Origin: Paenibacillus polymyxa M1
Lineage (GTDB): Bacteria > Bacillota > Bacilli > Paenibacillales > Paenibacillaceae
DNA length: 64,000 nucleotides
Direction of reading: 5' to 3'
NCBI RefSeq assembly: GCF_000237325.1
Contig: NC_017542.1
Location: 1,123,501-1,187,500, forward strand
The notes under the pieces are model-generated. The model was not told where the DNA came from, searched no databases, and saw nothing but the letters and a program-made list of their open reading frames with translations. A program made the translations under genes and the position numbers. Of this stretch, positions 23,087-63,641 are shown piece after piece. The stretch's first letter is position 1. Every line of letters starts with the position of its first letter.

Positions 23087-23194
23087 AAGCTCTATTGGCG
23101 GTTGCTAGCGGAGCGGGCAGAATTGTTCTGGAGAAGCGAAACGTTCGGAAGAACAATCTGCACGCGCAGCGTCCACCAACCGCAAGAAAGCTTC
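23087..23194 (-). repeat. Structured 3'-UTR repeat, copy A (outer hairpin without inner module)
   Basis: On the minus strand this begins nine bases after the stop of the gene ending at 23203. The whole element folds as a nested hairpin: GAAGCT/AGCTTC at the ends, GCGGTTG/CAACCGC inside, then GCAGATTGTTCT with AGAACAATTCTGC. The same outer sequences (GCGTGCAGATT..TTCTTCCGA and CGCTTCT.CAGAACAATT) occur on the plus strand near 29885-30010, where they are split by an extra stem-loop. Confidence 0.6.
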
Positions 23195-23202
23195 TCATTT
23201 CC

Positions 23203-23583
23203 TTAACTCATCCCCATTAATACTATCGAGCAAAGTAAAAGTCCCGTCCCGCACCCCGAAGTATATACCTTGAGGTGGCGGAACATGGATGTTTTCCAGG
23301 CAGACAGAGATTCATCGGAACGCAAACGTTCATTTTCCTCCTGTAATGCCTTGGATTGACGAATGAACAACTGCCCCATGTCGGCAAATCCCCGCAGAAA
23401 GAGGGTGAGAAAGCCACTTTGCAGAACATGGAAGATCGCACCAATCACCAAGCCCAGCAATCCTAACAGAAATAGCAGATTTGCGGTAGCCAGGTTTTCA
23501 CGACCATACATGAGATGGGGTGCGGCGTATAAAAATCCTAAGGTACCGACAATCAGGGCAGTGATCCCGAAACGTAAAATCAT
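23203..23583 (-). CDS. DUF3899-like small membrane protein
   Basis: 126 residues. Two hydrophobic segments at about 5-25 and 34-60, then a charged helical stretch (QSKALQEENERLRSDES), and a third segment at the C-terminus. Its ATG overlaps the stop of the peptide-binding-protein gene (TAATG), so the two are translationally coupled. The call rests on general resemblance to DUF3899 proteins, which often accompany oligopeptide transport genes, and is moderately sure. Confidence 0.65.
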   Translation of the reverse strand: MILRFGITALIVGTLGFLYAAPHLMYGRENLATANLLFLLGLLGLVIGAIFHVLQSGFLTLFLRGFADMGQLFIRQSKALQEENERLRSDESLSAWKTSMFRHLKVYTSGCGTGLLLCSIVLMGMS

Positions 23584-29089: not shown

Positions 29090-29842
29090 ATGAACACTAA
29101 CGCAATAGAAGTAACCGATTTGAAAAAATCATTCGGCCAGCTCGACGTTCTGAAAAGAGTGAGCTTTAACGTGAAGTCGGGCGAGGTTGTAGCTGTCATC
29201 GGTCCTTCAGGTTCAGGGAAAAGTACCATGCTTCGCAGCTTGGTGCATCTGGAGGATGTGACGGGCGGGACGATTCGCATCCATGATAAAGCCCTGGTGG
29301 AAAACGGTCACTATGCTCCGGCAGGCGACATTAAGAGCATTACTACCGGAATGGGGATGGTGTTTCAACATTTTAATCTCTTCCCTCATTTGACGGTGCA
29401 GGATAATCTGGAACTGGCTCCAAAGCTGGTGAAAAAGGTGAGCAAGGCTGAGTTGCGACGCCAGAGCGCCGAGTTGCTGGCTAAAGTCGGCTTGGCGGAT
29501 AAAGCGGATGCGTATCCGTCCCGATTGTCGGGGGGACAGAAGCAGCGGGTGGCGATTGCCCGGGCAATGATGATGAACCCTGATATTTTACTGTTTGACG
29601 AGCCGACCTCGGCGCTTGATCCTGAGCTGACAGGCGAGGTACTGCGAGTGATCAAAAAGCTGGCTGAGGAGCATATGACGATGGTCATCGTGACCCACGA
29701 AATGAATTTCGCGAGAGACGTGGCAGATCGCGTCATTTTTATGGACAATGGAGAAATTGCGGAATCCGGTACACCGGAGCAGATTTTTGGCAATCCGCAG
29801 TTGGAGCGGACGAAGGTGTTTTTGAATCGGGTGGGGGATTAA
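29090..29842 (+). CDS. Polar amino acid ABC transporter ATPase (GlnQ-type)
   Basis: 250 residues. Walker [11 protein letters not shown]-loop in [12 protein letters not shown], signature [14 protein letters not shown], Walker [15 protein letters not shown], and the H-loop [15 protein letters not shown]. Length and motifs are those of GlnQ/ArtP/TcyC ATPases. Last gene of the three-gene importer. A structured repeat and then a terminator follow its stop. Confidence 0.95.
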
Positions 29843-29871
29843 AAACATAGTTGTTTGTTTGGGAGTATGTC

Positions 29872-30022
29872 GGGGAGGCGCTACGCGTGCAGATTATTCT
29901 TCCGATCGCTGTTGCAACGGGATTTTTTCATTTATATGACACCTGGTAAGGTTAAAATCCCGTTGCAAAGGCGAACGCTCCGCTTCTTCAGAACAATTCT
30001 GCCCGCTCCGCTCACCGACCAC
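29872..30022 (+). repeat. Structured 3'-UTR repeat, copy B (outer hairpin plus inner module)
   Basis: The inner module is 29906-29974: TCGC, an unpaired TG, a perfect 15-base stem (29912-29926 with 29954-29968, TTGCAACGGGATTTT), a 27-base loop, an unpaired AG and GCGA. It interrupts an outer sequence also found as copy A at 23087-23194, exactly between TTCTTCCGA and ACG.T.CGCTTCT. The element starts about 30 bases after the ATPase stop, in that gene's orientation. Confidence 0.65.
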
Positions 30023-30072
30023 CTGTGTAAGTACTATGTTTTTAAGCAGGAAGTGTAAGTAGGAAGAGCAAG

Positions 30073-30100
30073 GGAGATGGCGAGCGCTATCTCCTTTTTT
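30073..30100 (+). terminator. Rho-independent terminator between convergent genes
   Basis: Stem GGAGAT (30073-30078) with ATCTCC (30089-30094), then six T. Confidence 0.75.
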
Positions 30101-62313: not shown

Positions 62314-62355
62314 AAAATGGCAAGTCTCTGATGATTTAGAGGCTTGCCATTTTGT
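62314..62355 (+). terminator. Rho-independent terminator after the lyase gene
   Basis: AAAATGGCAAG (62314-62324) pairs with CTTGCCATTTT (62343-62353), with inner CTCT/AGAG. Confidence 0.85.
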
Positions 62356-62481
62356 ATTATTAAAGTTGAAGAGTATAGACGGTTTATCTAAGGTCTGTAT
62401 GGATGGTTTTTAGAACATCTTCAAAATAGCAATCTGCTGAAAGCAGCGGAGAGGACGAACGATTGCGAAAAAGCGTCAGGG

Positions 62482-62573
62482 TCGCCTTTGTATCCAGATT
62501 TTTACCACTAAGCTATTCAATAAAATCCAGATACAACAGCGATTGGAGCAACGTTCCGTTCGCGGAGCGTTGC
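62482..62573 (-). repeat. Structured 3'-UTR repeat, copy C (inner module plus second hairpin)
   Basis: On the minus strand, reading down from the stop of the gene at 62601: first a short hairpin (62548-62573) of 11 base pairs closing a TTCG tetraloop on the plus strand, then the inner module TCGC-TG-stem-loop-stem-AG-GCGA (62542 down to 62482) with a 19-base loop. Stem arms are 62488-62502 and 62522-62536. It shares TCGCTGTTG at one end and CAAAGGCGA at the other with copy B. Together with the preceding terminator it fills the gap 62257-62600. Confidence 0.65.
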
Positions 62574-62600: not shown

Positions 62601-63641
62601 CTACTGCAATGTCGGAGTCGATTCTCTAAATATCGGCTCTGTTCTGATATGCGTAATCTGATAAGGTCTGGAAGGATCTTTGACCCGTGCCAATAGCATC
62701 TCAGCCGCCGTAATCCCCATTTCGTTGTTGTAGATATGCACAGTGGATAAATGAGGCTCCACAATCCGGGATTCAGGAGCGTTATCAAACCCAAACACAG
62801 CAATATCTTCAGGGATTTTCAAGTTTTTATTTTTGAGCGCTTTCATGACACTGACGGCGATAAAATCATTGGCGCATACGAACGCGGACGGAAGCGCGCT
62901 CATACCCTCCAATTGTTTATCCATCCAATCTGATTCGGAGAAAAAATTTCGGTCCTGATCAACGATGCAGCAAGATAAATCCACACTTAGGCCTGCTTCG
63001 ATTAAAGCACGGTTATATCCAACCCACCGCTCGTTGAAGCTTTTGCAATGTTTATAATCCCCAGCAAAACCGATCCGCGCAAATCCACGATCAATCAGGC
63101 TTTTGGTAACAAAATAAACGCTATGTTCATTTTCCATCAACAATAAATCCGCTTTCAAATCAGGACAAAAAATGTCCACCGAGCAATCAATAAAGATTGT
63201 GGGCAATCCCAAACTCGTAACGAGCTCACTATACTGTGGATCGAACATTTCAATACAAATGATTCCGTCAACCTTGGAGGCTTCAAAATTATTAGGAAGT
63301 GTTCCCGCTTGGGTTTCGTTTTCCCGCACAATATGAATCGACAAATTATACCCTTCTGCACTTATTCTTTTTTCCAGCCCACTGATCAGAAAGGAGCCAA
63401 AATGCGAGCTGTTCGGCAGATTGCATGTAAACAGGGCAATGTTACCTTGGTTCCTAGGGATGATGCTGTCTGTTTCCACATAGGCAAATTGCTTATATTT
63501 GAGCTCGATCGCTTTTTTAATGACCTTGTTCCGAGTATCAACCGGGATGCTGTCACTACCGTTAATCGCTTTGGATGCGGTGTTTCGGGAGATTCCCAAA
63601 GCATCAGCAATGTCTTGAATGGTGACTTTTTCTTTCTTCAT
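62601..63641 (-). CDS. LacI-family transcriptional regulator
   Basis: 346 residues. HTH TIQDIADALGISRNTASKAINGSDSIP at the N-terminus, then a sugar-binding-type effector domain (IALFTCNLPNSSHFGSFLISGLEK, FVCANDFIAVSVMKAL, VFGFDNAPESRIVEPHLSTV). Convergent with the rhamnogalacturonan lyase gene, which it may regulate; the unseen gene beyond 64000 is another candidate target. Confidence 0.94.
   Translation of the reverse strand: MKKEKVTIQDIADALGISRNTASKAINGSDSIPVDTRNKVIKKAIELKYKQFAYVETDSIIPRNQGNIALFTCNLPNSSHFGSFLISGLEKRISAEGYNLSIHIVRENETQAGTLPNNFEASKVDGIICIEMFDPQYSELVTSLGLPTIFIDCSVDIFCPDLKADLLLMENEHSVYFVTKSLIDRGFARIGFAGDYKHCKSFNERWVGYNRALIEAGLSVDLSCCIVDQDRNFFSESDWMDKQLEGMSALPSAFVCANDFIAVSVMKALKNKNLKIPEDIAVFGFDNAPESRIVEPHLSTVHIYNNEMGITAAEMLLARVKDPSRPYQITHIRTEPIFRESTPTLQ

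Follow-up and report, generated by a model that had tools for sequence, protein, structure and literature searches.

A palindromic intergenic repeat family of Paenibacillus polymyxa M1 and its relatives in which stems turn over while pairing is kept

Three copies of a long palindrome in the window

The window, the whole 64-kb stretch of Paenibacillus polymyxa M1 DNA that was analyzed (NC_017542.1, positions 1,123,501 to 1,187,500), contains three copies of a long imperfect palindrome, each preceded on its own strand by the stop codon of a gene. The genes are predicted to encode an ABC-transporter ATPase (ORF 29090-29842, copy 1), a LacI-type regulator (LacI-family ORF 62601-63641, minus strand, copy 2), and a DUF3899 protein (ORF 23203-23583, minus strand, copy 3). 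The first base of the outermost 5' arm of copy 1 is the final stop-codon base of the ATPase ORF. Copy 3, which lies directly 3' of its stop codon, was absent from the earlier note on this DNA. The parts of the three copies and the nearby terminator-like sequences are as follows, with the basis of each assignment in parentheses.

29842..29852, plus strand: copy 1, 5' arm of the outermost helix, AAAAACATAGT (sequence, fold)
29877..30010, plus strand: copy 1, core element (match to covariance model R1, 133.8 bits)
29889..29900, plus strand: copy 1, 5' arm of the middle helix, P2 (fold, joint fold of copies)
29906..29974, plus strand: copy 1, 69-nt inner hairpin with the frame TCGC-TG-TTG...CAA-AG-GCGA (sequence, fold, covariation)
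29912..29926 (TTGCAACGGGATTTT) and 29954..29968, plus strand: copy 1, 15-pair inner stem (sequence)
29975..29989, plus strand: copy 1, conserved 3' internal-loop sequence ACGCTCCGCTTCTTC (alignments)
29990..30002, plus strand: copy 1, 3' arm of the middle helix, P2 (fold, joint fold of copies)
30033..30043, plus strand: copy 1, 3' arm of the outermost helix, ACTATGTTTTT (sequence, fold)
30073..30100, plus strand: terminator-like hairpin with a 10-nt loop and a T-tract, 3' of copy 1 (by eye; absent from the terminator scan)
62447..62571, minus strand: copy 2, core element (covariance model, 109.0 bits)
62482..62542, minus strand: copy 2, inner hairpin with the conserved frame (sequence, pattern)
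62314..62353, no strand assigned: terminator-like palindrome with a T-run, beyond copy 2 (scan, plus strand only)
23109..23173, minus strand: copy 3, element without the inner hairpin (covariance model, 48.8 bits)

A terminator-like sequence after copy 3 was also seen by eye and is absent from the terminator scan. The 69-nt hairpin of copy 1 lies inside a longer fold that includes the middle and outermost helices, and the inner stem of copy 2 is formed on the minus strand, inside 62542-62482, by TTGTATCTGGATTTT pairing with AAAATCTGGATACAA. The earlier note had described the inner stems of copies 1 and 2, and both can be read from the sequence at the coordinates given above, as can the frame common to them. 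Of the differences that it had reported between these stems, the changes from C-G to T-A and from A-T to T-A are present; its two changes from G-C to G.U are instead one change to T.G, with both bases altered (U.G in RNA), and one to G.T.

When copies were folded with their flanks and compared with 200 shuffles, copy 1 had a z of -3.17 and copy 2 a z of -2.63, and 0 of 200 shuffles folded as well for either. Two further copies treated in the same way gave z values of -4.51 (0 of 200 as good) and -1.21 (27 of 200 as good). A search pattern derived from the frame, with a gap of 20-50, matched copy 2 only in the window and gave 0 matches in 100 window shuffles; it misses copy 1 because the gap there is 51.

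Abundance and covariation of the family

The frame pattern gave 13 matches in the M1 genome, compared with 0 for a reversed-pattern control. The earlier note had proposed as a check that a covariance model be used to find more copies and covariation, and model R1 lists 49 matches in this genome. Since 8 short matches duplicate another match on the opposite strand, the list corresponds to at least 41 distinct places, a lower bound since 150 of the 2415 first-look candidates were scored. Eight of the 41 places are only 65-66 nt long; three of these, including copy 3 of the window, were seen to be without the inner hairpin, and the other five probably lack it as well, judging by their length.

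Matches to R1 are present in 60 of 60 Paenibacillus genomes, M1 included (one genome has a single match), and in 245 of 296 genomes of the order, representing 33 of 48 genera; with at most 56 and 11 candidates scored per genome, respectively, the match counts for genus and order are lower bounds. In two close genomes, the matches at E up to 1e-10 number 47 and 63. At least 119 stretches were found when named genomes were scanned with a pattern. Among the 80 listed, 53 are from Paenibacillus, Cohnella, or Fontibacillus and yielded 94 model matches, both strands counted, and the 27 from other taxa look like chance pattern matches, because they yielded 4 model matches at E up to 1, the best at 0.004.

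With Rfam 15, no family scored above its gathering threshold anywhere in the window, and copy 1 searched by itself drew only sub-threshold matches (E 0.026-8.2), the families concerned being microRNA precursors and one for a plastid 3' UTR. Carriage by phages or plasmids was considered and rejected: the phage sequences searched contained no match to the element, and among plasmids the only matches, at 72-74% identity, were on two large P. cellulosilyticus replicons. A literature search of open-licence papers returned no description of a Paenibacillus nested-hairpin repeat, and a word search of a P. riograndensis RNA-seq paper gave "repeat" and "palindrom" 0 times. The family, which apparently has not been described before, reaches dozens of copies in some genomes of Paenibacillus and related genera.

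Some copies are found close together. Tandem copies with a spacing of 231-331 bp were seen at four loci (L140 6774-7417, L079 3262-3623, L105 920-1276, and L107 587-1047). In the five closest pairs of the M1 genome, with starts 290-531 bp apart (G000:C1, 1369289/1369820, 5364638/5365021, 1354937/1355364, 4084790/4085127, and 532558/532848), the strands of the element that correspond to the one read in the earlier note (below, the reference strand) face each other in all cases.

The members of the family are long imperfect palindromes with a core of about 130 bp (more with the outer stem), in which nested helices are split by conserved internal loops. When 15 copies were aligned and jointly folded, 20 of 34 predicted pairs had changed on both sides in at least one copy. 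In a fixed structure of 31 pairs for these 15 copies, 92.5% of cells pair, and the covariation score, with kinship ignored, was 0.453; shuffles gave 0.150, and versions with a slid partner did not exceed 0.145. The earlier note had claimed a conserved structure, and this claim is borne out by covariation of the structured-RNA type beyond these controls: 19 of the 31 pairs changed on both sides, a number reached by 0 of 500 shuffles, and both the inner and the outer helix covary. One of five covariation measures, that of further pair types, was not unusual, since 73 of 500 shuffles reached its value.

Across 195 inner stems, pairing with a stem's own partner was 92.6%, compared with a mean of 69.9% when the partner came from another copy. 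The outer stem is variable between copies, and its pairing exceeded the 90th percentile of the partner-swap null in 74 of 162. Internal-loop sequences are conserved in the 15 aligned copies and make up a large share of the model matching across the order. The TG/AG internal loop, which the earlier note had reported as kept, is identical in these 15 copies, in part by construction, as nearly all of them were collected by the frame pattern. The inner-stem counts and the comparison of stems between orthologues are limited to copies with the frame TCGCTGTT...AAnGGCGA, with decayed copies left out, and because frame-keeping copies were selected, conservation of the frame in the stem counts is by construction; 23 of the counted stems come from loci L154-L192.

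Constraint, loss, and exchange at orthologous sites

In 21 orthologous pairs from two genomes (flanks mostly 90-96% identical), the stem was kept in 20 cases and replaced as a block in one (L045/L046), with a stem scored as swapped when more than 5 of its 12 pairs differ, a threshold that we set. Relative to the M1 genome, stems had been replaced at 2 of 12 and 3 of 16 orthologous places. Among the 20 kept pairs, the swapped pair having been dropped from this set, identity was 96.4% in the stem arms, 92.4% in the 5' flank, and 86.3% in the apical loop; the value for the 3' flank, 61.4%, is depressed by indels and was set aside. In the pair L222/L246, both arms of the middle helix had changed and the inner stem was the same. 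When a donor for the swapped stem L046 was sought among frame-matching copies of the retrieved loci, the nearest was its orthologue in another genome (88%), and the best other copy in G006 reached 81%. Also in G006, comparison of L276 with L239 revealed two neighboring elements that appear fused, with the intervening DNA gone.

The site of copy 1 was compared across five genomes, M1 included, chosen for the highest similarity of the upstream gene (88-100%). The outer part of the element was kept in 5 of 5; the inner hairpin was of the same type in two, differed in type in two others, and was absent from the fifth. In one of the two genomes with a different type, the 3' arm includes an additional hairpin of about 39 nt. 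An insert of this kind is present in 11 copies of the retrieved loci, 10 of them at one internal loop and one elsewhere. In these 10 copies (L048, L063, L223, L239, L240, L278, L280, L284, L334, and L335), the 3' strand of the conserved TG/AG internal loop carries an insertion of about 40 nt (AGCTTTCC..GGAAAGCT after a second mini-hairpin) that some orthologues have and others do not; in L160 the insert is at another loop.

At two further sites, each compared in six other genomes, the inner hairpin was missing from one or two genomes, and the ends of the loss agree with the near-repeats GATCGCT and GAACGCT. In two genomes, one of these sites retains the outermost stem but nothing inside it. 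At the second site, the stem arms in G034 match different types and pair imperfectly, as they would after recombination in the loop. The events at these two sites, a small number, look like internal deletions, and no target duplication or clean empty site was seen. At the place of copy 2, the element is present in three of four genomes, M1 included, and the fourth differs in sequence past the stop codon.

The modules of the element are constrained in place, at times lost, and at times replaced or enlarged. The pattern of these changes points to loss of modules by deletion and to their exchange by recombination between copies or alleles, as would be expected because the element is a DNA palindrome with short repeats near the module borders. 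It is an intergenic palindromic repeat family that is unusual in that its stems turn over with pairing and internal loops kept and its nested modules change separately.

Position, strand, and possible action

The position of the element was analyzed for 163 copies with callable neighbors, with genes called by ORF length only; 240-nt ORF calls overlying the element were rejected as spurious. No orientation bias relative to the upstream gene was found in these copies (80 of 163 are codirectional). The gene on the 5' side of the element, in terms of the reference strand, was the nearer neighbor in 130 of 163 copies. Of the 79 copies examined with a codirectional upstream gene, 53 have their outermost paired 5' base between -30 and +15 relative to the stop codon. 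A strict terminator search of 72 sense copies found 0 terminators between stop codon and element and 19 beyond the element (53 copies without any found), whereas among 79 antisense copies 14 were between the gene stop and the element and 2 beyond it (63 without any found). The finder is insensitive, as it called 28 of 151 control gene ends, and because the sense and antisense groups also differ in spacing, their contrast counts as one observation and not two. When the upstream gene points away, 25 of 85 copies sit 38-61 nt before its start codon, and inspection by eye indicates that several of these leave room for little beyond the outer stem arm and the ribosome-binding site. This placement at coding ends, with any terminators that were detected lying beyond the element, suggests that mRNAs include the element, either as 3' UTR on the reference strand or as 5' UTR on the complement, a placement that folding on both strands would suit.

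The earlier note had argued that wobble pairs between the stem arms work on one strand only and that the element is therefore a conserved RNA structure and not only a DNA palindrome. The first part holds for copy 2 alone. When the arms of 195 distinct inner stems were paired by position on the reference strand, 2144 of 2340 cells were Watson-Crick, 23 were G.T, 85 were A.C, and 88 were other mismatches (77 pyrimidine-pyrimidine and 11 purine-purine). These counts are not independent, with 34 of the 85 A.C cells at a single stem position; the M1 genome alone has 6 G.T and 5 A.C. Counted per cluster of related stems, G.T and A.C numbered 17 and 26 (p 0.22), and with looser clusters 14 and 18, then 12 and 12, while pyrimidine-pyrimidine exceeded purine-purine by 40 to 11 (p 6e-5; 31 to 10 and 27 to 9 with looser clusters). 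The clustering is rough, as single linkage groups 179 of 197 stems in one cluster. One-sided changes between orthologues gave 6 G.T versus 4 A.C, 3 versus 2, and 6 versus 3 in three overlapping comparisons, a slight lean to the reference strand. For the middle helix, an alignment-based count of 21 G.T and 83 A.C is probably inflated by conserved loop bases, and in a fixed register the numbers were 5 and 3 in one type (66 copies) and 1 and 5 in another (47 copies).

In 155 of 199 copies, the complement had the lower predicted RNA folding energy, and wobbles make up 1.0% of cells on the reference strand and 3.6% on the complement, which is probably fewer than usual for an RNA helix that evolves stepwise. 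The strand that is transcribed would differ between copies. A fair statement is that the reference strand is not clearly preferred, that some signs favor the complement, and that wobbles are few enough for a DNA palindrome to be possible. From the 23 G.T versus 85 A.C cells and the better folding of the complement, the wobbles do not prove RNA. The observation made in the earlier note is confirmed and its interpretation is partly supported, the RNA reading now being drawn from the position of the element in probable UTRs.

The explanation that we favor, with moderate confidence, is a long-hairpin repeat embedded in UTRs, of the general bcr1/ERIC kind, that acts most likely on mRNA, keeps its pairing, and is reshuffled by recombination. 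Many copies occupy places where they would be co-transcribed with a neighboring gene, either immediately behind its stop codon and ahead of the terminator or a short way 5' of a start codon. The resulting RNA would form a hairpin that is double-stranded over nearly all its length. Its likeliest action would be on the mRNA, where it may protect or process the end or provide a site for a double-strand-specific nuclease. We infer transcription, folding in vivo, and an effect on mRNA from sequence and position; against this explanation, the copies have no orientation bias relative to the upstream gene, wobbles are rare on both strands, and pairing is poorer on the reference strand, the one expected in transcripts of sense copies. 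If this explanation is right, Paenibacillales carry an abundant unannotated structured element at gene ends that could set mRNA ends and half-lives. The copies, their orthologues, and the natural losses of modules are a natural experiment in which paired structure is kept as sequence changes, and the same set of copies bears on how intergenic repeats affect mRNA. We give little credence to the idea that the inner hairpin is a replaceable cassette of an order-wide UTR element, in which complete self-paired stems would be swapped by recombination, so that the mRNA end of each gene would have its own, almost always paired stem, and fixed internal loops would be read by a protein or nuclease.

Among known systems, bcr1 was reportedly described in 2004 as an intergenic, hairpin-forming sequence of about 150 bp with many copies. 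The Paenibacillus repeat is likewise intergenic, hairpin-forming, and present in many copies. Unlike bcr1-3, its stems differ strongly between copies with pairing kept, its inner and outer modules change separately, and its hosts are Paenibacillales, a separation that is drawn from the descriptions of bcr1-3. In the Bacillus cereus group, bcr1-3 are described as MITE-like and frequent in UTRs; across all 18 families (bcr1-bcr18), 84 of 165 and 62 of 155 repeat copies were in transcripts in two B. cereus strains, and of the families with high copy numbers bcr3 alone correlated with the mRNA decay rate (PMC3446304). Like ERIC elements and other MITEs, the Paenibacillus repeat is palindromic and intergenic. 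ERIC elements also carry internal insertions. In contrast to ERIC elements and MITEs, no target duplication was found here at two sites and no parent transposon in a PF01797 search, and covariation among copies is strong. According to a review, transcript decay can be altered by ERIC copies located at 3' ends and also by Correia elements, which serve as RNase III sites (PMC10969869). Like REP sequences, the family consists of many palindromes with conserved tags, but its element is much longer and has nested helices. REP palindromes are linked to the RAYT transposase, whereas the single Y1-transposase match in the M1 genome is broken and off the main contig. REP sequences are described as many short palindromes with conserved tags (PMC3733652).

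The main rival that remains, possible but in our view unlikely, is a mobile repeat at the DNA level, MITE-like or REP-like, for which the palindrome would be needed as single-stranded or cruciform DNA by a trans-acting transposase and transcription would be incidental. A high copy number, dispersed intergenic positions, tandem copies and facing pairs, pairs that are almost all Watson-Crick on both strands, an outer stem that is copy-specific yet paired, and the matches on two large P. cellulosilyticus replicons are all consistent with such a repeat. They have to be set against the constraint on stems at orthologous sites, the lack of a phage match, and the lack of a clean empty site with target duplication at two sites, at one of which the outermost stem retained in two genomes fits deletion as well; in addition, the sole PF01797 match in the M1 genome, searched as a candidate partner, is on contig 2 and has an internal stop. 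It is improbable that the pairing is without function and arose from quasi-palindrome replication errors, in which one arm is copied from the other, with copies then spread by recombination. The dominance of two-sided Watson-Crick changes with few wobble intermediates, as well as the near-repeats at the ends of module losses, would be expected in this case, but the conservation of internal-loop sequences among the 15 aligned copies and across much of the order-wide model, and the tight placement at stop codons, would not. The excess of pyrimidine-pyrimidine over purine-purine cells is also unlike a symmetric correction, though G.T and A.C are not significantly different.

A family of transcription terminators is very unlikely, even though the element is positioned at gene ends and has A-rich and T-rich outer-stem bases in some copies, such as copy 1. 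Among 192 copies, AAAAA upstream peaks at only 8% and TTTTT downstream at 14%, the 3' base has on average 4.7 T in 14, a separate terminator is present beyond the element in 19 of 72 sense copies, and most copies, unlike an intrinsic terminator, have no T-tract directly after the stem. Trans-acting small RNAs with their own promoters would account for the defined folds and the many paralogues, yet we hold them to be highly improbable, as positions are tied to stop and start codons and a scan of the three window copies found no promoter-like site near copies 2 or 3 and, within copy 1, a single one at the level of chance.

A shared terminal inverted repeat was also considered; motifs of this kind are largely limited to a minority of near-group copies. 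The terminal motif GAGTTATGG is present in 11 of 107 near-group copies, 1 of 89 others, and 0 of 105 distal control windows, and CCATAAAGTC in 24 of 107, 1 of 89, and 0 of 105, respectively.
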